Shown here piece by piece: positions 5,751 through 40,764 of a stretch of DNA of 64,000 nucleotides. Within the stretch, counting starts at the first letter, position 1; every line of letters begins with the position of its first letter. The DNA comes from Massilia sp. UBA2604 (GTDB lineage: Bacteria; Pseudomonadota; Gammaproteobacteria; Burkholderiales; Burkholderiaceae_D). The position numbers and the translations under genes are program-made. The stretch covers positions 1 through 64,000 of the forward strand of contig DDKG01000362.1 of the NCBI GenBank assembly GCA_002339265.1. The letters are read 5' to 3'. The notes beneath the pieces were generated by a model. It did no database searches, was not told the origin of the DNA, and was given only the letters and a program-made list of their open reading frames with translations.

Positions 5751-7862
5751 CTACCGTGCCGGATGACGGAAACCCTCGGCCTCTGCCGACTGCTTCAGCA
5801 GTGCCAGTTTTTTCTGGTCCTTCAGTTGCGTAATTTTGAGGAATCCCGGCAGCGTGCTGGCCTTCAGTACCAGCGCCATGTCAGGCGGGGACAGATGCGT
5901 GGTTTTGCGTGACCAGGCATGCAGGGCAGTCCAGTAGCCGGACATGGTCATGTCAAGCAGCCTGGTCTGCAGTTCGATGCCGTCATCCACCTGGCCCTGC
6001 TTCCTGTCATCGGCCTTCTTCTCCGCAAACCGGCTCTTCGACACCGCAATCTGGCGCACGCTGCCGTCCCACGGCAGGTGCATTGCCGCGACGCTTTTCC
6101 AGCACTCTTCCTTCTTGCACCATTCGCCAACGTTCTTCACGCCCGGGGGCGGCAGCAGCAGGCATTCCTGTACGCGCTCCGCAAGCTGCTCGAGCCGGCT
6201 GGTCACCTCGGGCCCGGCGTCCTGGCGCGTCCAGATGCGCTCTAGGTCGATCTCGCCACGTGCCTGCCTGACGTCGTGGAACAGCTTTGCGACCGTATAG
6301 GTGACGATGTTGGCGCGGTAACCGCCCTCGTACCAGGAACCCCGTCCGGCATCGACGATCTCTTCCATCTTCTGCCAGATCAGGGCCACCGCAATGATGT
6401 TCCTGAAATAGCCGTCGCTATACTCCGGACTGATCCGTTCCCAGTACTCGGCCTCGGTTACCTCCGCGCTCCTGCTTGAGAACTGTCCCGCGAACCGGGA
6501 GAAATTCTTCTGCGCGCCAAGGCTGACCCAGTGCGGCTTCTCATCCCATGTATGGGCGTACTTGGCCAGGTCGGTCTTGCTGACCAGCTGGCTGGCCGGG
6601 TATTCATTCTCAAACGCGTTCTGCGCGGATTTGCTGAGATACAGGCGTTCGTTCTGGTACTGGCCGCGCGAGCGTTCGTAGAACCATTTGCTCTGGATAC
6701 GCTGGCCTGCCCTCGCAGGCGTCAGCAGACGCCGCGATATCTCTTCCATCCTGCGGTGGAACGGATGGTTCGCAAAGAAGTCGGCGGCAGCCACCTTGTT
6801 CTGGGTATTGGCAAATTCGGCAATCCGTGGAATCAGGTTCTGCGCCTGGTCCGGCAGCACGCGCGTCAGCTTCATCTGGACCGACACGCCCTTCAGGCTC
6901 AGTCTGTCCTTCTTGCGCGCGTTCAGGATGCTGGCGGTGGTCTGGCCGCCATTGACGATCTGCAGGTCAGTCAGCCCGGTGATCACCATCTGGCCGCCGC
7001 GCGACTCGACCGTGACGTCCGACGCGGTCGCCGCGATCCCGTTGTTATAGGCGAAGAACAGGTCCGGCACGTCCTGGATGGTCGCGCGGATTCCCTTGTT
7101 GACCCCGCCCTTCATGCCGAGGAAGGAGCGCACGTTACCTTCGAGCAGACGGCTGCCGTAGCGGTCGAACAGGTTGGCCAGCTGGTCGCCCTGTACCACG
7201 CAGAGATACGAGCGCAGGTCGTCCGAACGGGCCGCCTCGAGGCACGGAATGGCCATGCCCCCGAGTTCCCCGAGATCGATGTGAACGGCCTCGCGCTCGC
7301 GGCTCGATTCATACAGCGCGGCGAGGCGTTGCAGGTCCCAGATGTGGCGTTCGACAGGGATGCCGGCGATGTCGTCCAGCAGCTCCTCCTTAAACTTGCT
7401 GCTGAGCGTGAGGTTGGTGAAGATGTGCAGCCGGATGCGGCTGATCCTTGCCGCCTCGCTGTCCAGCTGCAGCGCCAGCTCGTAGGCGGGATTGGCTTCC
7501 GCAACGCGCTCGTGAAGACCGTTTTCGATCGCCTCGCGGACGAAGTTTTCCATCCATCCGGTCAGCTGTTCGACGGTCGCCGTGTTCAGCGTCGCCGGCG
7601 CCTCCAGCTCTTCCCAGCGGCCGAGCACGATGCCGATGCTGCCGTCGGCCTCGTCGAGCTTGGTGAAACCATGCAGCTTGAGCGTCCTGTTTTTAGGACC
7701 GGTTCCCTGGTATTCGACCGGCTCGAACTCGCCGAAGACCGGATCTTCCCCGAGCCGGTCGGCCACCTCCCGGACAAAGGCAAGGGTATCCACCAGGTGT
7801 TCCGCCTGGCTGCGGCGCGCTACCAGCTGGCGCAGTTCAGTAAGAAAATCGTCAGGCTGCAT
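5751..7862 (-). CDS. AIPR family protein (abortive infection phage resistance)
   Basis: The protein has 703 residues. The frame is open further upstream, but ATG 7862 gives the natural N terminus (MQPDDFLTEL) and overlaps the preceding gene by 11 bp. The AIPR core is clear: FFAYNNGIAAT near residue 268, IVNGGQTTASI near 305, then FANTQNKVAAADFFANHPFH. AIPR proteins occur in phage abortive-infection loci and as the last gene of GHKL-Z1-PD-(D/E)XK operons, as here. The role is presumably target recognition or nuclease activity in phage restriction; the mechanism is not settled. It is the last gene of the minus operon. Confidence 0.85.
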   Translation of the reverse strand: MQPDDFLTELRQLVARRSQAEHLVDTLAFVREVADRLGEDPVFGEFEPVEYQGTGPKNRTLKLHGFTKLDEADGSIGIVLGRWEELEAPATLNTATVEQLTGWMENFVREAIENGLHERVAEANPAYELALQLDSEAARISRIRLHIFTNLTLSSKFKEELLDDIAGIPVERHIWDLQRLAALYESSREREAVHIDLGELGGMAIPCLEAARSDDLRSYLCVVQGDQLANLFDRYGSRLLEGNVRSFLGMKGGVNKGIRATIQDVPDLFFAYNNGIAATASDVTVESRGGQMVITGLTDLQIVNGGQTTASILNARKKDRLSLKGVSVQMKLTRVLPDQAQNLIPRIAEFANTQNKVAAADFFANHPFHRRMEEISRRLLTPARAGQRIQSKWFYERSRGQYQNERLYLSKSAQNAFENEYPASQLVSKTDLAKYAHTWDEKPHWVSLGAQKNFSRFAGQFSSRSAEVTEAEYWERISPEYSDGYFRNIIAVALIWQKMEEIVDAGRGSWYEGGYRANIVTYTVAKLFHDVRQARGEIDLERIWTRQDAGPEVTSRLEQLAERVQECLLLPPPGVKNVGEWCKKEECWKSVAAMHLPWDGSVRQIAVSKSRFAEKKADDRKQGQVDDGIELQTRLLDMTMSGYWTALHAWSRKTTHLSPPDMALVLKASTLPGFLKITQLKDQKKLALLKQSAEAEGFRHPAR

Positions 7863-8826
7863 TGGAATGCTCCGGAATCTGGAATGCCCCGATCGAGGCG
7901 AGAAGAATGGTGTAGGTGACGTCCGGTATCCCGGCCGGCAGGGTCGCCGGGACCAGCCTGGGGAAACTGTCGCCCACCGCATAGTGCCGGGTCTCGAGCG
8001 GCACGAACGCGATGGTCTGGTAATGTTCGTGTTCGACATAGCCCGCCGCCAGCAGCCTGTCGTGCAGCGCGGCCATCGCACCCGGCACGTCGGCGAGCAT
8101 CTCCGCTGTGCGCGCCACCAGCAGCGGCAGGGTAAGTGCGCCCGGATCGCTTGGGGCGCTTTCGCGAAGCACGCAGAGGCGTAGCGTCAGCGGTACCGCG
8201 GCGTCCAGCTGCAGCGTCGACGCAATGCCGACGGTGCCGGCACCCGGCGGAACCGAGGTGACCTCGACCGCGCGGTCAGGGAAGACAAAGTCCTGGGCGG
8301 CGCCGGGATTCTTCCAGCAGGTGACCGGCTGCAGCGGGTCTTCCCGGCCCACACGGATGAATTCGCCGAGCGCGAGCAGTTCAGCGACCAGTTCGCGGAT
8401 CTTCTGTTTCTTCAGAAGCCCGAGACCACCATCTCTGAAAAGCCGCTTCCACAGCTGCAGGCGCGCGCGGAACAGGGAGACCAACGCCGCCTCGCCGGCG
8501 ACATCCGCTGCGGCGTCCGTGAGGTCCTGGCACAGGCGCCCGAACACACTTTCCAGTGCGGTTGCCGTCAGCCGGAGCCCTAGGAGGGTGCGGCCGCCGG
8601 CACGCGGCATCGTAAAATAGGTCAGGGCCTGGGTATCGGCATCGATGGCTGGCGGACGCACACCGACGCTGATGGCGAACAGGGCAGCCCCACCGCCATC
8701 GACCCCGGCGTAGATGTCGAACGGGTGCTCCAGGTCGATCCGCACCAGCTGCCAGCCGCCGGCGTCTCCGGGACTGCCCTTCACGCCTGAGCGCAGCGAT
8801 TCCCAGAGCTCTTCAATCCGTGTCAT
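7852..8826 (-). CDS. PD-(D/E)XK-like protein (DUF4420-type) with altered active site
   Basis: The protein has 324 residues. ATG 8826 (MTRIEELWESL) is chosen over earlier in-frame starts because the family begins this way and it gives a 14-bp overlap with the Z1 gene. It is recognised as the PD-(D/E)XK partner normally found between Z1 and AIPR genes. The motif region is DFVFPDRAVEVTS: D179, E188 and then T190 where the catalytic Lys is expected. The homologue at 4708-5646 has the same D-x8-E spacing and keeps Lys. It is therefore either a catalytically weak or dead subunit, or uses another Lys. The family assignment is good; activity is uncertain. Confidence 0.75.
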   Translation of the reverse strand: MTRIEELWESLRSGVKGSPGDAGGWQLVRIDLEHPFDIYAGVDGGGAALFAISVGVRPPAIDADTQALTYFTMPRAGGRTLLGLRLTATALESVFGRLCQDLTDAAADVAGEAALVSLFRARLQLWKRLFRDGGLGLLKKQKIRELVAELLALGEFIRVGREDPLQPVTCWKNPGAAQDFVFPDRAVEVTSVPPGAGTVGIASTLQLDAAVPLTLRLCVLRESAPSDPGALTLPLLVARTAEMLADVPGAMAALHDRLLAAGYVEHEHYQTIAFVPLETRHYAVGDSFPRLVPATLPAGIPDVTYTILLASIGAFQIPEHSNAA

Positions 8827-11542
8827 CGTCCTCGCCTTCGTCGTCACCGAACAGGTCGCGCAGCGCAACCCGGTTCAGCCTGTACACGACCTTCTCGCCA
8901 TTGGCCAACGGATCAAAGTTAGGGAAACTGAGGCTGACCGCAACCATCGGCTGCGTTCCCGCTTCCGCAGCACTCATCATCTTTTCAGCATTTTTCTCGG
9001 TCGGATCCTTTGCCTCGATGAAGGAGAGCGTCAGCAGCGGTCTGGAGCGGAACCGGCGGTACTGGTGGCCGGGCACGGCCCTTGTTTTCTGGTCCTTCTC
9101 GTTCTGCCGCAGCCAGTCCGCCTCGGCATCACGGATCTGGTCTTCAGTCATCAGCACCCGCTCGTCGCTGGCGTCGCCGACACGCTGCCTGTTGATTTTC
9201 AGGTGGGGCACATTTTTCGCGGTCTTTTCGAACTGCCGCTCGCGGCAGCGGATTTCGGCCGGCACGCCGCCATTCACCGGTACCAGCACGCCGGGCACGC
9301 CACGGCCCAGACCCTGCGGGATGCATAGATCCCATCTGTCCAGCGCTGCCTGGCCGTTTTCGGCAATGAAACGCAGCAGCGGCCGCACACCGTCCCGGGC
9401 GTCCGGCACGAACTGCATGTTCATGTTGCTGATGTCGAGGCCGGAAAGCAGTTCCGCAATCCGCGCTTTCGGAATGCCGGTCCATACGAACCGGCTGCCA
9501 GCCAGTGTGGCGGCGCCTTCGTCACGTATGAAGGCGGCAACGCGCTGCACGTTGGCGGCGTTCTGCGCCGCGACGCGCGGCAGGAAAGGCGTCTCGGCGC
9601 CCGACGCGCTGAACGAGACCGAGTGCGCAACATCCTTGCCGCTTCTCATCTTGATCTGCGCGGTCACGATCAGTGTGTCGGGATGCGCCCGGACCCGGAT
9701 GCCGAACTGCGACGGCGGCAGGCGGTTGGCGGCCATGCGCCGGAAATCGGTCCGCAGCTCCGCCACCGCTCCGGCGATGTGCGCATACCAGCTCTGGGCG
9801 TCGGCATCCATCCAGATGCGGAACAGGTCCTCATAGCCGGGCCGGTAGCCAAACCAGCGCCCCATCTGCAGCAGGGTGTCATAGGCCTTCGAGTTGCGGT
9901 AGAAGTAGCTGACGGCCAGTCCCTCGAGGGTCAGGCCGCGTGACAGCGTCAGGCCACCTACCGCAATGACGCGGCGGCCCATGCGGGTGTTCTGGTAGCG
10001 GGAATAGTCGAGTTTCTCGCCCTGTTCGGTCTTCTGGTTGACGGTCACCACCTTGATCGAAGCGACCGACTCGTGCAGGTTCTGGCGGATCGCGTCCCAC
10101 GCAATGCCGGTATCGGCGAACTCTTTGTTCCAGACCTGTTCGAGGTGCACGAGGTCCGGGTGCAGGCGCCACGAGCTGCCGGCGAGGTACTGGTGGATTT
10201 CCTGCTGCAGGCCGTACAGGAAGCTGCGGATCCTTTCCGAGACGCGCGACTGTACGTCGGTGAACCGGCTGACATTGACCAGCATCGAGCGGTGCCGCAG
10301 TTCCTCGCCGCGCAGGTCACGCACTGCGCAGCCCAGCAGGAACACCCTGACCGCCTCCTTCAGGCTGTCCGGCAGCGCGGGGACGGAATGGTCCTTTTTG
10401 TGCACGTAAGGGAAACTGGATTCGGCGTCGTTGATGTCGCGCAGCTGGTGATGGTGCTTCCCGTCCTCCAGAAAAATGCTGGCGGCGCCGATGTAGTGCG
10501 ACGGCGAATTCAGGCTGTAGATGAAATTCGACGGGAACAGGTCGGTTTCATTGTCCGGATTGATGAACACGTTCGCGAACGGGGTCGCGGTATAGGCCAC
10601 GTACGACGAGCGGGCAAACTTCGCGATGATGCCGCGGATGAGGCGGTTGATCGTGGCCGGTTCCTGCCCCTCTTTCCGCACGTTGACGGAGGCGTTGTCA
10701 GCCTCGTCGTCGACGATCAGTATAGGCAGCTGGTGGGTGTCGTGTCCGGACTGCTTGAGCTGGGCGTCCAGCCAGGCCGTCAGGTTCTCTAGCGGCGCCT
10801 TGTTCTTTTTCATGACGAACAGCAGCGGCTCGCTGATGTTGGCCAGCGGGATTCCGCCGAGGATCTTCGCGTTATTCGTCAGGAAATCGAAGTCGACCGA
10901 GGTCAGTACGTTGGCCGAGCGCTTTCTGTATTTTCCGGCGCCGATCGGATCGGCGCTGCGGCTGTTGCCGAATACGTCGCGGCTGTCGCGGCCGACAAAG
11001 CCCAGGTCGAGACGTTCCTGGGTCTGTCGCCGCAGGTCCTCGATCATGCCGGTCAGCAGGACGATGACGCGGTAACCGGCATCAGCCGCCTTGGCGATCA
11101 GTCCGCTGTAGCTGGCGGTCTTGCCCGACTGGACGTCGCCCATCACGAGGCCACGCAGGCTCCACGCACCTTCCCAGGCCGGGTTGCCGCACTCCGTCAG
11201 GATGTTGTCGGTGTCCTCGTCGAGTACCCGCACCACATCGCGGTTCCAGCCCTGGCTGGCTAGCAGCCGGGTATAGCTGTCCCAGTAGTTCCACGTGATT
11301 TCACCCTTCGCGTCCGACACCCATGGCGAGAAGCTGCTTTCCCGGACCACCTCGCCGACCGTCATACGGATGCCGATCGTCGACTCGAGCTTCCTGCGCA
11401 CGCCCCGCAGTCCATCCTGCCCGAGCCCGGGATCGAGCATCGCCAGCCGGCCAAGGACGTCCTCCAGCAGGGTGTCGGTAAGCGGACGGCCGTTGATGAT
11501 GCCCATGGCAATCCCGACGTGATCGAATGCGAAACCGTTCAT
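8813..11542 (-). CDS. Z1 domain protein, SF2 helicase-like
   Basis: The protein has 909 residues. ATG 11542 shares one base with the stop of the upstream ATPase gene (TGATG), indicating coupling. Helicase-like motifs are visible: Walker A GDVQSGKT near residue 134, the DDEAD box (LIVDDEADNASVN) near 280, YTATPFANV, and the motif V/VI region GGLTLSRGLTLEGL with LQMGRWFGYR. This is the classical Z1 architecture. It probably translocates on or remodels DNA together with the GHKL ATPase in a restriction-type defence. A partial paralogue lies at 1-888. The C-terminal region after about residue 650 carries the Z1-specific part. Confidence 0.85.
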   Translation of the reverse strand: MNGFAFDHVGIAMGIINGRPLTDTLLEDVLGRLAMLDPGLGQDGLRGVRRKLESTIGIRMTVGEVVRESSFSPWVSDAKGEITWNYWDSYTRLLASQGWNRDVVRVLDEDTDNILTECGNPAWEGAWSLRGLVMGDVQSGKTASYSGLIAKAADAGYRVIVLLTGMIEDLRRQTQERLDLGFVGRDSRDVFGNSRSADPIGAGKYRKRSANVLTSVDFDFLTNNAKILGGIPLANISEPLLFVMKKNKAPLENLTAWLDAQLKQSGHDTHQLPILIVDDEADNASVNVRKEGQEPATINRLIRGIIAKFARSSYVAYTATPFANVFINPDNETDLFPSNFIYSLNSPSHYIGAASIFLEDGKHHHQLRDINDAESSFPYVHKKDHSVPALPDSLKEAVRVFLLGCAVRDLRGEELRHRSMLVNVSRFTDVQSRVSERIRSFLYGLQQEIHQYLAGSSWRLHPDLVHLEQVWNKEFADTGIAWDAIRQNLHESVASIKVVTVNQKTEQGEKLDYSRYQNTRMGRRVIAVGGLTLSRGLTLEGLAVSYFYRNSKAYDTLLQMGRWFGYRPGYEDLFRIWMDADAQSWYAHIAGAVAELRTDFRRMAANRLPPSQFGIRVRAHPDTLIVTAQIKMRSGKDVAHSVSFSASGAETPFLPRVAAQNAANVQRVAAFIRDEGAATLAGSRFVWTGIPKARIAELLSGLDISNMNMQFVPDARDGVRPLLRFIAENGQAALDRWDLCIPQGLGRGVPGVLVPVNGGVPAEIRCRERQFEKTAKNVPHLKINRQRVGDASDERVLMTEDQIRDAEADWLRQNEKDQKTRAVPGHQYRRFRSRPLLTLSFIEAKDPTEKNAEKMMSAAEAGTQPMVAVSLSFPNFDPLANGEKVVYRLNRVALRDLFGDDEGEDDDTD

Positions 11543-12990
11543 CAGGCAAGCTCCTTCCGGATCTGTTCGTGGTACTGGGGAAAACGCGCAACCGGATCCA
11601 GCGACAGGACGGTGTCCAGACCGAGTCCGGTGACTTCCATCATTCTTGCGGCCAGCGCCGCCGTCTCCGCATACTGTGCCGGCTGCCCCGCGCCACGGCC
11701 GTCGCTGCACATATCCGAGTAGATCGATTCCAGTGGCAGCGCCGCAGCGGCGAGGTCGAGAACCTGCTGCAGCGCGTTCTGGGCAGCAGCGTCCAAGCCG
11801 TCCGAAAGGTGGCGGATGGCCGGGTGGTCCGGATTGAGCTGGTAGCGGAAACGGCCGCGTGACGGCTCGATCCTGTCCCAGAGCGGGACAAATCCCGCCT
11901 TCTGCCTCTGCCGGCGCCCGGGGTAGGTGATTGTGTTGCGGCTGGTTCCTGAAAAATGCGGGATGAGGTCGCGCAGTCGGTCGCGGATCACGTCCGGCGG
12001 GTAGGCGGCCGACTTTTTGATGTCGAGTGCCCACAGGTGGTCGAGGGTATTCGGGATGTCCACCTGGACGCGGGTCAGCTTGTAGAACTCCTCTTTCGGC
12101 ACCAGTCGAAACCAGGTACCCCAGATCACCAGTCTTCGGTTCCGGTACACATAAAAACCCTGCCTGCTGCGCAGGCCTTCACGGCCGCCGGCCTTGTCCG
12201 CCTCATCAGCGTCGAGATGGCTCATGTGGGGCAGGACATAAGGCTGTACGCTGATCCGCTCGCCGTCGACGCGGATCTCCTGACCTTCGAGCGGCTGGGT
12301 GAAGCTGTTGTCCTTCAGGAACGGGTCGAGCGCCTTCAGCTTCACGCCATTGATCCGGATGTTCACCGGCGCAAAGGTGCCTTCGCGCCGGGTATAGCGG
12401 TGAAATACGAACGACAGGTGGCTGTGCAGGTCCGCCATCCGCACCGTCATCTCTTCGGCAGGACGGGCCGAGCCCGACATCAGCCGGTCGAGCGACTGCC
12501 AGACCACGAGCGTACCGCTTGCCAGTGCCACCAGTTCCGCATACAGCGGCAGGTTCTTTAGTTCCTTCGGCGACGGTACGACGACTACCCAGCGGTTCTC
12601 CTGCTGGACGACATCCAGATCCCAGCAGCGGGCGTGCACCTGACCACCCTGGCTGCTGACCACCGTCAGGCGCCGGCACTGCGACAGCGATGCAGTCTTC
12701 AGGCCAAGGCCGAAACGCCCGAGATCCAGCGCGGAACGGGCATCAGTGGGGTTGCGGCTGCCGTGGCGCATGGCGCTGGTCAGTTCCGCGGCATCCATGC
12801 CGTGTCCGTTGTCAAGCAGCGCCACGAACGGCTCGCCTGCCGCATCGTATTCGATGCTGATTGCCGATGCGCCGGCGGAGATGCTGTTGTCGATGAGATC
12901 GGCAAGCGCGGTTTCGGGCGTGTAACCGATTGCACGCATGGATTCGATCAGGCTTACCGGATCGGGAAGCACTTCCAGAATTTCAGGCAA
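11542..12990 (-). CDS. GHKL ATPase (Hsp90/MORC-like), first gene of minus operon
   Basis: The protein has 482 residues with textbook GHKL motifs: DLIDNSISAGA (about 36-46), LLDNGHGMD (about 59-66) and GRFGLGLKTASLS (about 95-107). TTG 12990 is used as start; AGGAA lies about 8 nt upstream and no in-frame ATG precedes the ATPase domain. These MutL/MORC-like ATPases head restriction-related operons with Z1, PD-(D/E)XK and AIPR genes, exactly the order seen here. It is much closer to the family consensus than the ATPase at 898-3042. A DNA methyltransferase often accompanies such operons but none is present upstream on this strand. Confidence 0.85.
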   Translation of the reverse strand: MPEILEVLPDPVSLIESMRAIGYTPETALADLIDNSISAGASAISIEYDAAGEPFVALLDNGHGMDAAELTSAMRHGSRNPTDARSALDLGRFGLGLKTASLSQCRRLTVVSSQGGQVHARCWDLDVVQQENRWVVVVPSPKELKNLPLYAELVALASGTLVVWQSLDRLMSGSARPAEEMTVRMADLHSHLSFVFHRYTRREGTFAPVNIRINGVKLKALDPFLKDNSFTQPLEGQEIRVDGERISVQPYVLPHMSHLDADEADKAGGREGLRSRQGFYVYRNRRLVIWGTWFRLVPKEEFYKLTRVQVDIPNTLDHLWALDIKKSAAYPPDVIRDRLRDLIPHFSGTSRNTITYPGRRQRQKAGFVPLWDRIEPSRGRFRYQLNPDHPAIRHLSDGLDAAAQNALQQVLDLAAAALPLESIYSDMCSDGRGAGQPAQYAETAALAARMMEVTGLGLDTVLSLDPVARFPQYHEQIRKELA

Positions 12991-25469: not shown

Positions 25470-26548
25470 TCCAGGGTCGCGATGTCGAACGCAACGGTGA
25501 CCGCGCGACCGTCATTCACCAGCGCTCGCACCATATCGCGCAGGTAGTCATGCGCCGGGTCGCTGCGACCGACCAGCACATCCAGATCGGCCTGTAGCAG
25601 ATAGGGCGTGCGGCAGGCTTCAAACCAGGCAAAGATAGCGGACAAGGGCGCACTGTTGGCAGCGTGCGTTGCCGGATCGTTTTATCCCAGACATTTGGCA
25701 TTGAGCCGCGAGCAGTTGTCGGCACCGGATGGCGCTTCATCCATTCCTTGCGCTCTCAGGGCAATCCCTTCGGACCGCAGTAGAGCGAGATCGCCAGAAG
25801 TGTACTGGCGCAGGAAGCTGTCCACCCTTGAATCGAGCGTCCGGGCGACTTCATGAAATGGTCTAGGCATGGCCAGTTGCGCACCAGCTGCCGCACCTGC
25901 TCGGCGACAATGCCTGCCTCCATGGCGCAAGACTTGATCAACAAGGTGCAGTCAGGCGGATCCGCAGGCCGACACTCAAAGCCCAGCAGGTAACAAGCGC
26001 TTTCGAACCTGAACTGTCGATCGTGGCGCGCTCTACCCGCTACGTAAGTTCGAATCCGGCGCGTTGCAGTACCTTGTGCAGGGAGCGCTTGGGACGGTGG
26101 AGCCTGACCAGCTGGCGGCCGCTCTTGCGATGCCGATTACCCCATCTGAACGCTGTCTCGGGGGCGGCGCTAGTGGCTGCGTCCGGCTGCGCTTCAGACG
26201 TCGCGATCCAGCGAGCGAATCCCGGAGGGCAGACTGGCACGAGCACACGGCTCTCACGCGTCACGGCACAGCGCAGCTGCCCCACCACGCCAAGCATGTC
26301 CGCGTGCTCGAGCAGGCAGATCACGCGGGTGCACGACCATGTCGAGTGGACCGTCCGCCAATGCCTGGTCGGAATTGGTCGCCGTCATCAGCATGGCAGA
26401 CGAGGCTGGCGAGCAGCTTGGATCCGGCTCGTAAGCGACGATGCTATGCCCTTGGGCGGCAAGCTGGCGGCTGAGTTCCCCTTTGCCGCACCCAAAGGGC
26501 CAACACAGGTTGGCGAGGCAAGCTGGACACCATCGCCAGCATCTTGCT
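25470..26548 (-). pseudogene. Decayed partial copy of the giant glycosyltransferase/methyltransferase gene
   Basis: This segment aligns with 34000-35095, inside the giant gene, in the same orientation at roughly 85% identity by eye. The intact copy is offset by 8528 bp at the left end and 8555 bp at the right end, so about 27 bp of net indels have accumulated. Only scattered frames survive, for example ACRTPYLLQADLDVLVGRSD near the left end. The region corresponds to the methyltransferase and the following GT-like domain. It starts 50 bp after mcrC and ends about 75 bp before the DUF3800 gene. It is not expected to make a protein. Divergence suggests an old duplication or a second related gene. 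Confidence 0.85.
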
Positions 26549-32299: not shown

Positions 32300-32902
32300 T
32301 TATCGACCATCCGCAGTTCGGGCTGCCTCAATGCGGTAATGAACCTTGTTGTATCGAGGCAGCCAACATGTGAGCAGGTCCATCGCCAGCGCGGCACTGT
32401 CGGCAGCAAAGACCTGATCGTCCGGCAAGTCTGGATAACGTACGCGCCCGTCGATCGGTCGTCCTGCCAGCAGTTCGCTCGAACCACCGCATCGCAAGCC
32501 GATGACTAGCCGCCCATAGGCCCACGCCAGCGCCATTTCGGATAGGGTGCCGGCGCCGCCGCCAATCGCGATCACCGCCGCGGAATGGGCTACGATCACG
32601 TTGCGTGCGTGGTCCAGTCCAGTCGGTATCGCGATGTCGACAAACTGATTTGCCTGACGGGTGTCGGAGCCCGGCAGAATGCCTATCCCAGCGCCGTCGA
32701 ACCAGTTGAGTGAGTCGCGCGCACCCTTGTGCGCGGCTTCCATCACACCACCCATACCGCCGGTAACCACCCGGTAGCCTGCGTCGACCAGCCCACGACC
32801 GATCGACTCCGCCAGGTTTCGTCGGGGATCGTCGCGAGCCAGCCTGGCGTCGCCAATAACCGCGATGCAGGGGCGTATCGGGCGAATGATCTCGGCGCTC
32901 AT
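32300..32902 (-). CDS. LOG/TIGR00725-family protein (SLOG fold)
   Basis: The protein has 200 residues from ATG 32902, in a 4-bp ATGA overlap with the end of the giant gene, so the two are coupled. LOG-family motifs are present: CIAVIGDARL, VVTGGMGGVMEAA, GIGILPG and GGGAGTLSEMALAWAYGR, a variant of the PGGxGTxxE loop. LOG and SLOG proteins bind or hydrolyse nucleotides or nucleosides; some release cytokinins, and others sit in conflict systems as nucleotide sensors. Its role beside a glycosyltransferase-kinase-methyltransferase protein is unknown. Confidence 0.75.
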   Translation of the reverse strand: MSAEIIRPIRPCIAVIGDARLARDDPRRNLAESIGRGLVDAGYRVVTGGMGGVMEAAHKGARDSLNWFDGAGIGILPGSDTRQANQFVDIAIPTGLDHARNVIVAHSAAVIAIGGGAGTLSEMALAWAYGRLVIGLRCGGSSELLAGRPIDGRVRYPDLPDDQVFAADSAALAMDLLTCWLPRYNKVHYRIEAARTADGR

Positions 32903-35900
32903 GCCGCGTCCTCCAGTCGGGCCGTGCCGGCTCTCATACGCTCCAAAGGCGCCCGCGCGATCAGCGCCGCGATTACATGCTCCCGCTGCTGGATCGTCAC
33001 TGGGTCGCGTGCGCCTCCAGGTTCGTGCAGGTACAGGGCTCGTTCGATCCAGCGTGGCGATTCCGCGAGCTCGGCCATTGGCAGCATGAGTGCCCAGTCG
33101 CTGGCAAGCTCCACATAGTCTCCATCGAGACGCAGGTATTCGTCCGGGATGGCTTCGAACAGGGATTTTCTGAAGCTGCGCAGGTGTTGCCATACATTCC
33201 CGCCCCGGTGCGCACGTGGTTGTTCAAAACAGGCGGGGTAGTAGGCCTTCTTGTCCGTCCTGCACATCGACCCGACCGTCATGTCCGCGCCGTTCGCATA
33301 CTCGGCGTCCAGAATGTCAAGGACGTCGCTGCCTATGAGGCAATCGTCAGCGTCCAGGGTGATCATCACGGAGTCCGGCCGCCCGCAATGCACCCGGATC
33401 GCTTCGACAGTATTGGTCAGCAGGCCGCGCCGATGGGGATTCCTGATGAAGGTAATGCGTGACGGATGCGCGCTACACAAATCCTGTTGAATCTCCGACC
33501 AGGCTGGATGAGAGGCGTCATCGAAGACGACCGCACCCCAATCCCTCTGTTCCTGGCGCAGCACCGAATCAAGGCAACGTTGGAATCGAGCGGGGTCGAC
33601 GTTTCGGCCAGAAATGATGAAGACAAAACGTTCAAACCGCGTGGGGCGAATCCACTGTTCGGATGTACCGACCAGGTTCACGGCGCCGAACTGGCTTGGG
33701 TCGACCTGGCCTCTTCCAACGCGGTCTGCAATGCGGGACAGCGCGATCGTATCCGCTTTACGGTCATTGGTCGGGTGAATGAAGAAGGAACGCCGGTCGC
33801 CACCGCGCAAGGAATGCGCGAGCCCGGATTCCACCGACGCGTCCAGCGCCCGGTGCCAAGCAGGAAGGTGCCCGAGCGACGTCGATGGCGGCAACTTCAA
33901 AGGCAGGATGGCCGCGAGGCGGCGCATTTCCAACAGACAGAATCGGGTTTCGACCCGCCACGGTCCAGTCTCGCTGCTGGCGGAATAGGGACGATCGCCG
34001 GTCTGTGCGATGTTGAACGCAACGGTGACCGCGCACTCATCATCCACCAGCGCCTGCACCATATCGCGCAGATAGTCATGCGCCGGGTCGCTGCGACCGA
34101 CCAGCACATCCAGGTCGGCCTGTAGCAGATAGGGCGTGCGGCAGGCTTCGAACCCTGCAAAGATAGCCGACAGCGGTGCACCGTTGGCGGCATGCGTCGC
34201 CGGATCGTTTTGTCCCAGCCATCTGGCATTGAGCCGCGAACATTCGCCAGCATCGGTTGGCGCTTCAACCACACGATCGATCCATCCTTGCTCTTTCAGC
34301 GCCATGGCTTCGGACCGCAGAAGGGCGAGATCGCTAGCTGTGTACTGGCGCAGGAAGCCGTCCACCCTGGAATCGAGGGTCAGGACGACCTCATGGAATG
34401 GCCTGGGTATGGCCAGTTGCTGCACCAGGCGCCGCACCTGCTCGGCGACAGTGCCGGCCTCCATGGCGCAAGCCTTGATCAACAAGGTGCAGTCTGGCGG
34501 ATCTGTAGGGCGGCATTCGAAGACCAGCAAATCGCATGTGTTTTCAAACCTGAACTGGTCGATCGTTGCGCGCTCTACCCGTCGTGTAAGCTCGAATCCG
34601 GCACGTTGCAGCACCTTACGCAGGGAGCGCTCGGGACGGTAGAACTCGACCAGATGGCGGCCGCTCTTGCGATGCCGTTTAACCCATCTGAACGCCGTGT
34701 CGGGGTCGGCGCCCGAAGCTGCGTCCGGCTGCGCTTCCGGTGTCGCGATCCAGGGAGCGAATCCCGGGTGGCAGACCGCCACCAGCACACGGCCTTCTCG
34801 CATCACGGCACGGCGCAGCTGCGCCACCACGCCAAGCATATCCGCATGGTCGAGCAGGCAGATCACGCGCCGGCACACGACCAGGTCGAATGGACCGTCC
34901 GCCATTGCCTGGTCGAAATCAGTCGCCGTCATCAGCATGGGCGATGCGAGGCTGGCGAGTCGCCCAGCGAGCGCCGGATCCGGATCGTAAGCGACGACGC
35001 TATGCCCTTGGGCGGCAAGCTGGCGGCTGAGTTCCGCCTTGCCGCACCCGAAGTCCAGCACACGCTGGCGCGGCAAGCCGGACACCATCGCCAGCACCGG
35101 ATCCTGCACAGGGGCCCGGCCGGTGGTTTGCCAGACGGCTTCCATGAAGCAGTCCCTGAAACCTGTGAGTTCGGGCATGTTCTGGTCGCTCAGGCTGGCG
35201 CGCAGCAATTCGGCCAGATCAGGCCTGTGCCAGAATCGCCAGGACAGATAAGCCCTGCGGCACATCAGCTCGAATTCCCACTCGAAGTCATCGAGCTCGC
35301 ACGCGAATGCCAGGTCGCCGCCATAATCGATGAGCCTGACGGCCGTGCCAACAGTACGCAGGTTCTTCGGGTGGATGTTTCGGCAAATCAGACCGTTCGC
35401 GTAGCAGTCGGCCATCAGGTCGACCATGCCCGGGCCGTCTCCGCCGCGATAGGGCAGGCTCTCCTCAAAGGGGTAGACGATGACGTTGTCGAGGCGCTCT
35501 GTCATGAAACGGATAATGCCGTACAGGCCAGCGCCGGTACGCCAGCGTCCCACCAGTTCACCGAGCCGCTGCCGGGCACGTTGTGACGCGGCGGGTTTCC
35601 AGTAGTCGATCGCTTTAAATACCGACGTCTCATCGGTCAGCACAACCCCTTCAACGCCATCGCCCAGCCAGCGCAGGCGAAGCGGGCGCTCTGTGTCGCT
35701 GTGGGTCACGCGCATGACCGTAGCGATAGCGTTGCGAACCCGTTGTTCGCGCAATTGGTCATGGATGAGGACTGCGGAGGCAATACAGCGCTGATGCTGC
35801 ACGATCAGATCGGGCAACCGATCGTAGAAGTCTACTGCCCGTTTCGCATCGAGTCTGGCGACAGCCTGTGTCACGCGAGTGAGCATCGCGTCGTCGATGC

Positions 35901-38088
35901 GTGCCAGGACGGCGCGCGCAAATGCAGCAAGCGCTGTGGAGTGCCCCGCCAAAGCGCCGGGCGCCTGAGCGATTCCGGCAAGCTCGGTGGCCAGTCCACG
36001 GATGCGGTGCACTGCAAGCCGAAAGGCGGCAAGGCGCTCATTCCGCAATTTCTCGGCACGATCGCCCAGGTCGACGCAGGCAACGGCTGCGTGATCCTGA
36101 AGTGCAGAAAAAAGGGCGAAGCCGCAAATATCATCGACCAGGCATTGTTCATGTTCTTCGGGGGTACCGTGTTGTGACTCCCGTGCGTGGTAGACGCCCA
36201 GTGGGACCGACACGATCTTCCGCTGGCAGCGGCTGCGTTGCATCAAGGCCCAGATCATGTCGGACCGACGGGTAGCACGGCCGCCGATGTCAGGTACCGC
36301 GTTCGGCACATCGGCAAGCGCATCGGGATTGAGAACGAAGGTGTTGCCGCCCCGGTGCAAGGCCTCGCTCGATTCGAAAGCGTGAGCTGCTGCGGCATCG
36401 AGCACGAGGGGGCGGAACAGCTGTTGTCCGTCCAGAATGCGCTCGAGGTTCGTGCACAGGCGTTCGCAGGCTGCATGGACAGTCTCCGCTTCATGCGCCT
36501 GCTCCAGCCAGAACGGCGTCTCGAGGCGATCCGTCTCCTGGTGCGACAGGTCGTAATAGAAATCGCGGCGTGCCGCGCGCGCGGCAGCGTTGCATGCTGA
36601 CCTGTCGGGCAGCGAGGCGTCCGGCGCCAGGGTCGCCAGCCAGCGCAGGTTCGCCAGTAGATCTACCATTTGCACACGCAGGGTGGACAGGGCGGGCAAG
36701 GGTGCCGCGCCAGTGTAGTTGCCGATGGCGATGTCCACGCCATCCTCGCGCAGGCGCCCAAGAAGGGGGATGAGCGGCATGCGCTGGCGCCTGATAGTTC
36801 CGCCCGCAGATACGAGCGGATCGAGGCGCATGTCGTCGTCCAGTATCCATGCAACGGCACCGCGGCGCGGCTTGAGGAAGTGGTAGAGATAGGTCTGCAA
36901 GGCCGTGCGCGCTGGGCCGATGGGTAGCCGCCCGGGCCTGGATGGCGACAGTTCGCCCGCCAGCATCGCGCGCAGCCTTGCTTCCTGCGTGATCACATGC
37001 ACCCGCAAGCCCTGCACACGCCATCGGTCTGCGGCTGGTTCCAGGCCCTCGGCACATACCGCGTCGGACACATCGTTTTCAAGGACGACCACATCGAGAC
37101 CAACCAATCCCGGCGTGTCCTGAAGCGCCAGCAGGTCACCCATCAAGCCGTCCAGCGCGCCCAGCCGGTTTTGATCCGTGATCAGACCGACGACGAGATG
37201 GATTTCGGCTGCTGCATGTTCAACGGGTGGGGCAGGCGCGGACAACGTCTGCGCTGGCGCGCCTGATCGGTTCGCACCCGGTGCCTGCCATCTAAACAGC
37301 CGCGCTGCACGCGATTCGGCCTCAAGCGCCTGGCCTGCCGTCATGTGCACGCGGTGCTTGGCGAAGAAAGCATCCAGGCCTGCCAGCCGTTGCGGCGAAC
37401 CCGGAGTGGACAAGCGGTCGCGGTCGCTGCACGCGAAGTGGCGAACCGTGTTCACCCCCGTCGAGCGGTAGCCGAGCGTAGAGATGCGCAGCAACCTGAT
37501 CAGGAGGTCGCGATCCGTACAGCTGGGCAAGGCTTCGTCGAACAGCCCCGCCTTGAGCAGGCGGTCGAGGCGGACCATCATGCTGCTGGGCTGCACCCCT
37601 GGATTGCCGACGTAGAACGTTCCCACATCGAGGTTCACGGGCGGCATGATTTCCTCGTCAGGCAAACCTTTCACGGCACGCGTAAAACCCGAGGCGATCA
37701 GCGTCGCGCCATTGGCAGCGGCGTCGCAACAGTGCGCCAGGTGGGCTGGCGACCATGAATCGTCGTCATCGAGGAACGCGACATAGGTACTGCGAGGATC
37801 GGCGGTGTTGCGCGCCAAGTGGTCCAGTCCGGTGTTCCATGCACCGGAAGCGCCCCGGGTGCGGCGATTTCGCAGCGCCGATACGGGCAGACCGAGGTCT
37901 TCGGCGATGTTCCGCGTCCGTTCGATGGACGACGGATCCAGCGAATCGTCGACCAGAATTAACTCGTCACAGCAGCGCTGTTGTGCCGCAATGGATGGTA
38001 GGGAGCGAGTTGCCAGCAGTGCCGGACGATCTTTGGATGCGACAAGCGCGACCACACGAAATGTCGCCGAAGGCGCAATGTGAGACAT
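32899..38088 (-). CDS. Giant protein: glycosyltransferase-like, kinase-like and methyltransferase domains
   Basis: ATG 38088 is chosen because GGAG lies 6 nt upstream; a longer frame to 38202 lacks a ribosome site. The product has 1729 residues. Domains in order: a GT2-like domain with AFLDDDDS near residue 104; a second GT-A-like region with AWILDDDMRLD near 415; a kinase-like domain with WLGDGVEGVV near 803, VFKAIDYW, RNIHPKNL near 905 and LIDYGGDL near 920; a SAM methyltransferase with VLDFGCGKAEL near 1010; a third GT-like part with LLQADLDVLVG near 1320; and a last GT2 domain with ITLDADDCL near 1575. No membrane segment or signal peptide is visible, so it is probably cytoplasmic. Part of it is duplicated as a pseudogene at 25470-26548. 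The substrate is unknown. Confidence 0.75.
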   Translation of the reverse strand: MSHIAPSATFRVVALVASKDRPALLATRSLPSIAAQQRCCDELILVDDSLDPSSIERTRNIAEDLGLPVSALRNRRTRGASGAWNTGLDHLARNTADPRSTYVAFLDDDDSWSPAHLAHCCDAAANGATLIASGFTRAVKGLPDEEIMPPVNLDVGTFYVGNPGVQPSSMMVRLDRLLKAGLFDEALPSCTDRDLLIRLLRISTLGYRSTGVNTVRHFACSDRDRLSTPGSPQRLAGLDAFFAKHRVHMTAGQALEAESRAARLFRWQAPGANRSGAPAQTLSAPAPPVEHAAAEIHLVVGLITDQNRLGALDGLMGDLLALQDTPGLVGLDVVVLENDVSDAVCAEGLEPAADRWRVQGLRVHVITQEARLRAMLAGELSPSRPGRLPIGPARTALQTYLYHFLKPRRGAVAWILDDDMRLDPLVSAGGTIRRQRMPLIPLLGRLREDGVDIAIGNYTGAAPLPALSTLRVQMVDLLANLRWLATLAPDASLPDRSACNAAARAARRDFYYDLSHQETDRLETPFWLEQAHEAETVHAACERLCTNLERILDGQQLFRPLVLDAAAAHAFESSEALHRGGNTFVLNPDALADVPNAVPDIGGRATRRSDMIWALMQRSRCQRKIVSVPLGVYHARESQHGTPEEHEQCLVDDICGFALFSALQDHAAVACVDLGDRAEKLRNERLAAFRLAVHRIRGLATELAGIAQAPGALAGHSTALAAFARAVLARIDDAMLTRVTQAVARLDAKRAVDFYDRLPDLIVQHQRCIASAVLIHDQLREQRVRNAIATVMRVTHSDTERPLRLRWLGDGVEGVVLTDETSVFKAIDYWKPAASQRARQRLGELVGRWRTGAGLYGIIRFMTERLDNVIVYPFEESLPYRGGDGPGMVDLMADCYANGLICRNIHPKNLRTVGTAVRLIDYGGDLAFACELDDFEWEFELMCRRAYLSWRFWHRPDLAELLRASLSDQNMPELTGFRDCFMEAVWQTTGRAPVQDPVLAMVSGLPRQRVLDFGCGKAELSRQLAAQGHSVVAYDPDPALAGRLASLASPMLMTATDFDQAMADGPFDLVVCRRVICLLDHADMLGVVAQLRRAVMREGRVLVAVCHPGFAPWIATPEAQPDAASGADPDTAFRWVKRHRKSGRHLVEFYRPERSLRKVLQRAGFELTRRVERATIDQFRFENTCDLLVFECRPTDPPDCTLLIKACAMEAGTVAEQVRRLVQQLAIPRPFHEVVLTLDSRVDGFLRQYTASDLALLRSEAMALKEQGWIDRVVEAPTDAGECSRLNARWLGQNDPATHAANGAPLSAIFAGFEACRTPYLLQADLDVLVGRSDPAHDYLRDMVQALVDDECAVTVAFNIAQTGDRPYSASSETGPWRVETRFCLLEMRRLAAILPLKLPPSTSLGHLPAWHRALDASVESGLAHSLRGGDRRSFFIHPTNDRKADTIALSRIADRVGRGQVDPSQFGAVNLVGTSEQWIRPTRFERFVFIISGRNVDPARFQRCLDSVLRQEQRDWGAVVFDDASHPAWSEIQQDLCSAHPSRITFIRNPHRRGLLTNTVEAIRVHCGRPDSVMITLDADDCLIGSDVLDILDAEYANGADMTVGSMCRTDKKAYYPACFEQPRAHRGGNVWQHLRSFRKSLFEAIPDEYLRLDGDYVELASDWALMLPMAELAESPRWIERALYLHEPGGARDPVTIQQREHVIAALIARAPLERMRAGTARLEDAA

Positions 38089-38396
38089 GTGACTCCAGGA
38101 TGTGGATGGGATTGAATCGGCCTCGTGATCCTTGGATATGCAAGGTGTCAGACGATCCAGGGAGTGCTTCATCCAGGCATCCGAAGGGTCAAACCTTGCC
38201 ATCCGCAGGCACGATGAACTGCTACGTCATTCGAGTATATCCGCGGTTATGTGATCCAGGGCAGTATTGATCATCGATTGGGACCTGAGCCGCCGGTCCG
38301 GCAACATCGTGACGTCAGGCGCCCGGTGGAGTCGCAGCCATTGACTAGCGGGTAGGCGGAAAATGTGCTTTGATATATTATCATTTCCCCGTTGCA

Positions 38397-40037
38397 ATGA
38401 TTGCGAGCCACTCAATGGTATCCCCGGCAGAATACAGGCAACACAACGACCTCATCAACGCGCAGATTTTTCGGCAGGGACCCGCATTATTCGAGGCAGT
38501 CAAGCTGGCTGTCCTCGACAAGGCCACGGTTCCCCTAGGTGTCTATGACGCGGCGGCCCATCGGGCCAACCAGTCCATTCTCCTCGCCACCATTGACAGC
38601 GTGTGCGCCCATGGTCAGTGGCGGCCGGAGATTGACGCCGCAAGCTTCTGGGAGCTGGCGTGGGGGCGCATTGCTTATCAGGGCACCCGCGCCGACAAAG
38701 CGTCGAAGGAAATCGATCTGATGCCCAAGCAGATTCCGCTCTTTGCGGACTTCCGCGCCTATGACCGAGACGCGTATCAGTTTAACAAGAACGAATGGAA
38801 GCGCTTCTCTCAGCACTGGAAGCGCCGCTTCGCGTGGTTCAAGCTGGTGCGTCGTTACCGTGCCCGGCTGGCTGCGGAAATCGGGACTGCAGACCTTGAT
38901 TTGCTCGCCAGTATGGCTTTGGACGTGTCCGTGAAGGAAATGGGTGCCGTCCTGTGGGGAGAGGGCGCCGAGGACTGGCTGGCCCTGACCCGGAAGTGGG
39001 CCGACAGCCGCGCCAGGTTCACCGATTGGCTCTCGTTTGCAAAGGCCCAGAACGAACTGTGGGAGCAAAGCCTTGCCCTGTTCGCCCATCCCCAATCCGA
39101 AGCGCTCGCGATCATGACCAAGAGCGGACGTTACGAGGGCATCAGTTTTTCGGCGCATCACGAAAAGATGGTGAAGTACCTGGCGGTTGCAGATTTTCTG
39201 AAGAACTTCAAGGGCAGGCATGTGCTTGAGTACTATACCGGAGCAGATTACGCGCATATCCCTGAGCATCAGAACGGCGAGTCCTACCGGCTCGAGCGCA
39301 CCCGCTTCCAACACGTGCATGCGCGCTTTGCAGGGCATTTCGGACCGATCACTTCGCTGCATCTGATGATGGACCTCGGGTTCAAGACCGTGAAGCCGGA
39401 CCGTGTGCTGACCTATCTCTTCTCCCAGTTGGGATGGCTGATGACCTTGCCTGCCGATGCCTCGCAGAAGCAGGTACTCAAGGTGTATACGAATAGTGCA
39501 GTAGTGAGCGAGGTGCTCTACCGTGCCGATGTCCTCGCCGCCGCGATCGCGCCTCACGTCTCCGTGCCGTCCGTCCACCGTCTGCTCGACATCTGGCTCG
39601 TCAAGTTCGGACAGGAACCGGAAGAGAAATTCGGCATCACCATCCGGCTCGAAGGGGAGGACGGCGCGGGTCTCAAGGAGATTTATGAAGCGGTGAAAGA
39701 ACGTCTCGGCGACCAGGCCGTCCCGATGGGGGGCGAGGCGGCATCTTTCGAATGCTGCTGGCCGGTAGGAGAGATCTGGACGGCACGGGTCCGCATGCCG
39801 GGGGAAGGAGAGCCGGCCAAGCGCAGGCAGCCCAGGATTAGCGCCACGCCTGCGCCGACAACTAGGTACAGCCGAGAAGAGGCCGAAAAAATCTTTGTGG
39901 CGACCTGGCGCGCGGACCTGTCTGCCGTTCCGCGCCGTTATCCAGACCGCATCGACAACGGGCCGAAGGAAGCCATCATTCGTCTCATTGAGCGCGGCGC
40001 GGATCCGGCCACGGCGTTTTCCGCGTGCATAAACTGA
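38397..40037 (+). CDS. Unknown protein with helix-hairpin-helix glycosylase-like signature
   Basis: The protein has about 546 residues. ATG 38397 is used; ATG 38415 is equally possible, and TTG 38370 lies in an AT-rich promoter-like stretch. Residues about 310-350 contain HFGPITSLHLMMDLGF followed by VKPDRVLTYLF. This resembles the helix-hairpin-helix plus Gly/Pro...Asp segment of HhH-GPD DNA glycosylases, where the Asp is catalytic. RLLDIWLVKFGQEP follows about 70 residues later. The N-terminal 280 residues are helical and unrecognised. The gene is followed after 10 nt by a second gene, so they probably form a unit. DNA binding or base excision is a guess from the motif. Confidence 0.6.
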   Translation: MIASHSMVSPAEYRQHNDLINAQIFRQGPALFEAVKLAVLDKATVPLGVYDAAAHRANQSILLATIDSVCAHGQWRPEIDAASFWELAWGRIAYQGTRADKASKEIDLMPKQIPLFADFRAYDRDAYQFNKNEWKRFSQHWKRRFAWFKLVRRYRARLAAEIGTADLDLLASMALDVSVKEMGAVLWGEGAEDWLALTRKWADSRARFTDWLSFAKAQNELWEQSLALFAHPQSEALAIMTKSGRYEGISFSAHHEKMVKYLAVADFLKNFKGRHVLEYYTGADYAHIPEHQNGESYRLERTRFQHVHARFAGHFGPITSLHLMMDLGFKTVKPDRVLTYLFSQLGWLMTLPADASQKQVLKVYTNSAVVSEVLYRADVLAAAIAPHVSVPSVHRLLDIWLVKFGQEPEEKFGITIRLEGEDGAGLKEIYEAVKERLGDQAVPMGGEAASFECCWPVGEIWTARVRMPGEGEPAKRRQPRISATPAPTTRYSREEAEKIFVATWRADLSAVPRRYPDRIDNGPKEAIIRLIERGADPATAFSACIN

Positions 40038-40047
40038 AAGGATGTGT

Positions 40048-40764
40048 GTGAACGATCGATTCGATGTTCGCTATCGCGACGTGCAATGGCTAGCGTGGAA
40101 CCGGAGCTTTGATCCGGCGCAGCAGTTGGCTCTGTGCGCGTCGCAGCTCGAGATTCTGCGCAGCACCTTGGGCTCGAAATGGCCGCTCCTCGATAAGCCG
40201 AGGGTGAGGCAGGCTGGCGTGGCCGAAGCAAAGTTCCTCGCCAAGCATCTGATTCGTGTGGCCAGCGAGTCGGTGGATTTCTATGCGACTGTCGACTTCA
40301 TCACCAATGACGCATACGATCGGCTCGACGACATGCGTCGCGCGAGCGGAGCCCGTTCGCTGATCGGGCACCTGAAAAACTGGGACAGGCTGACTCACGA
40401 ACATATGGTGCCGGGGACCGCAGTCTTGCATGCGCTATGCGGGCTGAAGCCGGACGAGCCGGTCCTGCCGGTGCTGGACGCCCTGAGCTTCCGCGCGCTC
40501 GTTTCCGGGACCAAGCGCAAAAATGCCGGCAGGAGCGCGACCGATGCCTACCTGTTGGACGTCGAATACGGGCTGAAGAGCAAGCTTCCGTCTGCCCTTC
40601 CGGCCAGGTTGCGCAACCTTGGTCTGCATGAGTGGAGCCAGGTGCCTTTTCGTTACTGGCCCTTGACGCGCTATGAAGCAGCGGGCCTGCTTTCGGCACT
40701 CATCCCGGTGACCGAGCGTGCCCGTACCCTGCTGGATGCGTACGAGAGGGTGCGGTTGGAATGA
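40048..40764 (+). CDS. Unknown protein with an HNH-like EHxxP motif
   Basis: The protein has 238 residues with GTG 40048 as start; AAGG (40038-40041) is correctly spaced for it and too close to the ATG at 40042. Residues about 115-125 read DRLTHEHMVPG, which resembles the first histidine strand of HNH nucleases (EHxxP). No matching downstream His/Asn is obvious, so the nuclease assignment is weak. The protein is basic and helical. It lies 10 nt after the preceding gene and is probably co-expressed with it. Confidence 0.55.
   Translation: MNDRFDVRYRDVQWLAWNRSFDPAQQLALCASQLEILRSTLGSKWPLLDKPRVRQAGVAEAKFLAKHLIRVASESVDFYATVDFITNDAYDRLDDMRRASGARSLIGHLKNWDRLTHEHMVPGTAVLHALCGLKPDEPVLPVLDALSFRALVSGTKRKNAGRSATDAYLLDVEYGLKSKLPSALPARLRNLGLHEWSQVPFRYWPLTRYEAAGLLSALIPVTERARTLLDAYERVRLE

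Follow-up and report, generated by a model that had tools for sequence, protein, structure and literature searches.

Within a 64,000-nucleotide stretch of Massilia sp. UBA2604 (contig DDKG01000362.1, positions 1 to 64,000; the window hereafter, at its full length), a giant mosaic protein of 1729 residues and a small protein of the LOG/SLOG kind, encoded directly after it, form a genuine and deeply conserved unit. The giant is predicted to combine four GT-A-type domains with a pseudokinase-like domain and a methyltransferase, and LOG is its usual, co-inherited but non-obligatory partner. What might such a pair make? We consider it an evenly balanced proposition that the two genes form one exchangeable cassette within a mosaic biosynthetic system not described before, whose product would be glycosylated and derived from a nucleotide. 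The novelty is at the level of the system, whereas the individual domains are of known kinds. A reading of this DNA made from the sequence alone (the sequence-only reading) had named the pair its strongest candidate for something undescribed. We judge the system new because neither the family libraries nor PADLOC nor our literature searches described it; those searches, on the pair and on the GTP cyclohydrolase II-NADAR cassette treated below, found none in their coverage, which leaves out most subscription journals.

The junction of the two genes reads GCATGAGC and their 4-bp overlap, which the sequence-only reading had pointed out, is plainly visible there. Among 7991 candidates scored, 449 proteins matched the giant at E <= 0.001, and among the matches listed the giant is aligned over at least 91% of its length in 117 of 120 homologues; the homologue alignment favours the methionine at 38088 as the start, in agreement with the family length. 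Gene order was compared in 56 loci from a scan of genome contigs and 4 from viral contigs, with genes called by our own codon-usage script rather than by an annotation program. By record title these relatives belong to Pseudomonadota, Planctomycetota, Myxococcota, Chloroflexota, Thermoplasmatota, Methanobacteriota and others, many being metagenome bins whose individual taxon labels may be wrong. A LOG gene comes next after the giant in 43 of these 60 other loci, in bacteria and archaea alike. Four loci are untestable (L026, L046 and L050 end at most 361 bases from the giant, and L060 is a fragment resembling the last domain, D6, only), so that the proportion is 43 of 56. A 4- or 1-bp overlap is found in 27 of the 43 pairs. 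The 13 testable loci that have no LOG gene include two with just 1.3-1.5 kb of downstream sequence (L003 and L051), one of a different architecture (L048) and one split in two open reading frames (ORFs; L033).

Distances between giants follow those between LOG partners (Mantel r 0.78, 0 of 2000 permutations, n = 37), a correlation that does not separate co-evolution from common descent. Within one family of 295 genomes the giant is present in 2 and the LOG subfamily in 1, beside the giant and at 292 bits, the next LOG match scoring 80 bits; in the second giant-bearing genome the contig ends inside the giant gene. A survey of 392 Planctomycete genomes gave a giant-family match in 10, nearly whole-length in 5, and a LOG match of at least 172 bits in 8, five of them less than 1 kb from a whole giant. 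The Planctomycete LOG gene occurs without a giant at three loci, L100 and L101 with mixed neighbours and L102 with a run of genes described below; at L101 (9237-10263, minus strand) the partner-type LOG has genes of the cytidine-deaminase family and of peptidase family M54 beside it. Mapping LOG presence onto a FastTree tree of 49 giants takes 4 changes, consistent with an ancient partner that has been dropped on a few occasions. Four LOG-less Chloroflexota genomes with a giant have LOG-like paralogues elsewhere that lack the partner-specific signature.

Coordinates of the giant gene, its predicted domains (res, residues of the giant), the LOG partner and a decayed second copy in the window
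Feature	Position	Strand	Details
Giant mosaic protein gene	32899..38088	-	1729 aa plus stop; ORF open from 38202
D1, GT2-type GT-A domain	37279..38061	-	res 10-270; DDDD 107-110, TDRD 191-194
D2, GT75/MtdL-like GT-A plus helical domain	35719..37221	-	res 290-790; DDD 417-419, R471, R607xxD610, [HQ]634xR636
D3, kinase-like domain	35113..35706	-	res 795-992; K825, N909, D921 kept; N904 at catalytic Asp site
D4, S-adenosylmethionine (SAM) methyltransferase	34501..35112	-	res 993-1196
D5, GT-A-like domain	33637..34503	-	res 1196-1484; D1325xD1327; confident model
D6, GT2 domain	32944..33636	-	res 1485-1715; D1579xDD1582
LOG/SLOG cluster 4 (TIGR00725) partner	32300..32902	-	200 aa; 4-bp overlap with giant gene
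Decayed second giant gene, D4-D5 region	25479..26541	-	pieces in several frames

The giant has a confident predicted fold of six domains, in order GT2-type, GT75/MtdL-like, kinase-like, SAM methyltransferase, GT-A-like and GT2, which agrees with the earlier description of several GT-A domains joined to a methyltransferase. Pfam finds GT2 and methyltransferase domains in it, with Glycos_transf_2 reaching 96.4 bits for the whole protein over two stretches, D1 and D6 (cut-off 23.3). The best PDB profile match of D1 is AvpGT, a nucleoside 3'-O-glucosyltransferase (PMC11959488). D2 has the GT75 layout of GT-A, core and helical domain, and its DDD and R471 are kept in 49 of 49 giants; residue 634 is His in 31 and Gln in 18 of the 49, its equivalence to the Mn-binding His being set by order and spacing, not by superposition. 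Membership of GT75 by profile was tried and rejected, since 25 members gave no Pfam RGP match and hhalign against 10 RGP sequences returned a probability of 0.1%, though the register of that weak alignment agrees with the motif expectation; what we retain is a likeness of predicted fold alone. Sequence searches of the PDB gave no relevant match for D2 and no match for D5. By structure comparison, D5 and D6 match chondroitin polymerase (2z86) domain by domain; the structure searches scarcely covered D3 and D5 as separate domains. D4 weakly matches the WbdD methyltransferase (E 0.007-0.009). The kinase domain claimed in the sequence-only reading stands as a fold, with a profile match to the CDKL5 kinase (E 2.2e-6) and the Lys, Asn and Asp retained, but not as an active enzyme: the HRD-type catalytic Asp is replaced by Asn904 in 49 of 49 aligned giants, and D3 is therefore probably a pseudokinase.

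The LOG partner belongs to NCBIfam TIGR00725 (114 bits, cut-off 106.9) and Pfam LDcluster4, SLOG cluster 4 (116.8 bits, cut-off 26.3), and stays below the cut-off of canonical LOG, TIGR00730 (47.2 against 96.35 bits). LOG enzymes split nucleoside monophosphates, and the partner keeps R100 and E122 of the GGxGTxxE region, which we take to be catalytic residues of the LOG type, in 43 of 43 sequences (aligned with 5zi9). It also carries a C-terminal signature of its own, D151xR153 with W(S) preceding, the W being present in 41 of 43.

Partial matches to the giant revealed other architectures built on its first two domains, and a wider mosaic superfamily around this D1-D2 core exists. At L103 a D1-D2 protein is followed by a GTP cyclohydrolase II-NADAR fusion and by asparagine synthase, N-acetyltransferase (NAT)-like and deacetylase genes, the last a relative of the giants' C-terminal tails. 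L105 encodes D1-D2-GTP cyclohydrolase II, then NADAR, asparagine synthase, NAT-like, DUF4915-like (below cut-off) and deacetylase proteins; L106 has D1-D3-D2, GTP cyclohydrolase II-NADAR and asparagine synthase, reaching the contig end; and a plasmid of Pseudoalteromonas donghaensis (L107, 11989-18511) has D1-D3-D2, GTP cyclohydrolase II-NADAR, asparagine synthase and NAT directly after traC. None of these four stretches contains a LOG match, and the L103 genome has a weaker one at another place. The L105 protein has 232 relatives; among the best 120, GTP cyclohydrolase II accompanies 5, asparagine synthase with NAT 6, and a methyltransferase 12, ten of these also with a deacetylase. A plasmid search for the sister cassette returned the same L107 record alone at high coverage, and a viral scan returned none. 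A D1-D2-like protein of 926 residues (P0227) matches PF00590, tetrapyrrole methylase, and may be a further tailoring variant; at the LOG-less giant locus L004 (17913-22187, minus strand) a long ORF weakly matching NADAR lies on the opposite strand, 2.6 kb downstream.

Both LOG and NADAR are families of nucleotide N-glycosidases, and their association with the same core is our main reason for reading the system as nucleotide-based. NADAR proteins of the YbiA type are reported to cut the N-glycosidic bond of riboflavin intermediates (PMC11125620, PMC11543638). The sister cassettes with GTP cyclohydrolase II and NADAR lend support to the earlier suggestion that the LOG protein acts on a nucleotide. 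A link between the two kinds of cassette is L102, an unfused version of the system: a 466-residue D2-like ORF (8532-9932, minus strand) has a LOG match immediately after it (8538-8014), within a same-strand run (6057-12691, minus strand). The run also encodes an arylamine NAT-like protein (E 8.6e-8), an oxygenase resembling EvdO2 and SnoK (E 1.5e-14; EvdO2 is an everninomicin enzyme) and an M20-type hydrolase (E 1.4e-11), and has two further ORFs with no useful PDB match.

The tails and neighbours of the giant point to sugar chemistry. Among 48 giants, C-terminal tails measure 201-208 residues in 11 and 275-287 in 6; alignment of 11 of these 17 identified the short ones as histidine-phosphatase-like and the long ones as polysaccharide-deacetylase-like, and the other six, all short, were classed by length and kinship. 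Pfam scores on the tails are above cut-off for L017, L041, L012 and L030 and below it for L024, as for a separate 224-residue gene at L027. At L014 the LOG protein is itself fused to a deacetylase domain (just over the Pfam cut-off), and at L042 a deacetylase gene stands between giant and LOG. A nucleoside diphosphate (NDP)-sugar dehydrogenase cluster gene lies upstream of the giant in 9 loci (7 archaeal), and 6 loci have a gene of an epimerase-type cluster, the Pfam identity of each cluster resting on two members. Apart from LOG, the neighbours vary between loci. The Pfam scan of neighbours took in 148 of 205 genes, the other 57 lying outside it; ten sources (the window, the viral loci, two near-duplicate Planctomycete loci and short fragments) and genes of fewer than 90 or more than 1300 residues had been dropped beforehand. 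UDPG_MGDP_dh was the commonest family, with 6 of 148, followed by Epimerase and protein kinases with 3 each.

We propose the following scheme. NDP-sugars would be supplied, in some lineages, by the neighbouring dehydrogenase or epimerase genes and possibly converted to the furanose form by the GT75-like D2; D1, D5 and D6 would then add sugars serially onto a small, soluble, nucleotide-derived acceptor, D4 would methylate the chain or the acceptor, and D3 might be a scaffold that binds a nucleotide or sugar. Other lineages would use a deacetylase to free an amine and a histidine phosphatase to take off a phosphate. LOG may split a nucleoside 5'-monophosphate at its N-glycosidic bond, either ahead of assembly, with ribose 5-phosphate or the free base becoming the primer, or afterwards, for release; in the sister cassettes GTP cyclohydrolase II plus NADAR would carry out the equivalent step. 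The outcome would be a glycosylated, nucleotide-derived metabolite encoded on mobile elements. The nucleotide link is drawn from the resemblance of D1 to AvpGT and of D2 to MtdL, from the conserved R100 and E122, and from the four sister cassettes. More tentatively, and as a possibility well short of likely, these proteins could form a superfamily of mosaic 'nucleotide-to-glycoside' assembly proteins in which tailoring domains (pseudokinase, methyltransferase, deacetylase, phosphatase, GTP cyclohydrolase II, NADAR, asparagine synthase and NAT) can be swapped around a D1-D2 core, usually with a LOG or NADAR step. Phage-like elements and plasmids would then have carried this superfamily across bacteria and archaea, and its products would be hitherto unknown nucleotide-derived glycosides that act in microbial conflict.

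Could the giant instead work at the cell surface? It might build or cap a short repeat on a polysaccharide, either lipid-linked or exported, in the manner of WbdD or chondroitin polymerase, with LOG as an incidental neighbour, a reading we hold to be unlikely. The similarity of its GT-A domains to WrtF, RmlT, TarP, chondroitin polymerase and heparosan synthase, the weak WbdD match of D4 and the dehydrogenase, epimerase and deacetylase associations all suit it. However, no glycosyltransferase, flippase or polymerase family had as many as two matching genes among the 148 neighbours scanned with Pfam, and the consistent O-antigen or capsule setting that the sequence-only reading had named as counter-evidence to its own view was not found; the retention of LOG beside the giant across bacteria and archaea and the GTP-derived metabolism of the sister cassettes also argue against a surface glycan. 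A nucleoside antibiotic against competitors, from which the host would be protected by the same cassette, seems very unlikely to us: some of the domains have relatives in nucleoside-antibiotic and nucleoside-glycoside pathways, and the L102 run, with its EvdO2-like oxygenase and NAT-like genes beside LOG, adds weight to this idea and to our proposed nucleotide-derived glycoside alike, but no resistance or export gene recurs in a neighbourhood that is mostly variable.

Defence deserves separate weighing, given where the window pair is found. GajA and GajB of Gabija lie downstream on the same strand as the pair, with McrB- and McrC-type genes further away. A remnant of a second giant gene, placed between McrC and a DUF3800 gene, has 84.4% DNA identity over 1091 bp to positions 34007-35096 of the intact gene. 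Divergent from the giant are two adjacent plus-strand ORFs of 555 and 240 residues (38370-40037 and 40042-40764), neither with a Pfam or NCBIfam match; the longer has a weak PADLOC match to OGG (E 9e-5). The Planctomycete loci L017, L019 and L036 share a common set of neighbours with the viral contigs L057-L059; at L057 an integrase (PHROG match, invertase-type domain) starts about 1 kb after LOG and is followed by a sigma factor, and L019 has a Sak4-like gene. The pair looks like accessory, mobile cargo because of the plasmid case, the integrase neighbour, the low genome frequency (2 of 295 and 10 of 392) and the decayed window copy. Such cargo is frequently defensive, and a defence role of the pair is possible. 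That its product, or a modification it makes, stops phage growth would be compatible with the biosynthesis of a nucleotide-derived glycoside, and the Gabija and McrBC neighbours, the patchy distribution and the positions near an integrase and inside a plasmid tra region speak for it; we nevertheless find it improbable. The sequence-only reading had asked whether defence genes are the usual neighbours: in the sequence covered at the other 60 loci there is no relative of GajA, GajB, McrC, DUF3800 or either upstream ORF, the PADLOC families seen in neighbouring genes are scattered, none reaching more than 4 of 148, and mobile cargo serves many functions. PADLOC gave no system model for the pair itself, only mad2 over the methyltransferase region (E 6.7e-10) and, for LOG, a weak match to PsyrA (E 0.006).

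If the biosynthetic proposal is right, annotations such as 'glycosyltransferase', 'methylase' or 'hypothetical protein' hide the core of a modular pathway that resembles other mosaic synthases in its logic, is found in bacteria and archaea, is moved by mobile elements and gives LOG-like and NADAR proteins a biosynthetic role. It would also be a new source of nucleoside-type glycosides, and protection against phages or rivals would be directly testable.

Several known systems come near to parts of this one and differ from them. The nucleoside 3'-O-glycosyltransferases AvpGT, NucGT and ScaGT (GT2) have a fold in common with D1, at 22-25% identity, but are single-domain Streptomyces enzymes whereas D1 sits in a mosaic, and WrtF is structurally as close to D1 as they are. 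The GT75 NDP-pyranose mutases (MtdL, from the A201A nucleoside antibiotic (PMC9937993), Hyg20 and plant UAM/RGP) align with D2 over 290-294 residues, helical part included, with DDD, the candidate Arg (R471), RxxD and [HQ]xR in the same order; D2 differs in its missing Pfam RGP match and non-significant hhalign result, its mosaic context and a metal-site His that is not always kept. WbdD, the O9a chain terminator, likewise joins kinase-type and methyltransferase domains in one protein, but its hallmark of an active kinase joined to a methyltransferase is found in the giant for the methyltransferase alone, the kinase-like domain having lost its catalytic Asp, and the giant has four extra GT-A-type domains. 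The domain order of WbdD differs as well. Chondroitin polymerase K4CP and heparosan synthase 2 hold two GT-A domains per chain and are not known to have a methyltransferase or a kinase domain; K4CP matches D5 and D6 domain-wise, with a root-mean-square deviation of 21 A over both, so the domain arrangement differs. LOG cytokinin riboside 5'-monophosphate phosphoribohydrolases and Moco carrier proteins are the PDB sequence relatives of the LOG partner, which keeps the Arg and Glu of the LOG site and is set apart from canonical LOG by its own signature and its score under the TIGR00730 cut-off. Finally, GTP cyclohydrolase II and the riboflavin-intermediate N-glycosidase NADAR both occur in the sister cassettes with the D1-D2 core, where a nucleotide N-glycosidic bond would thus be cut too.

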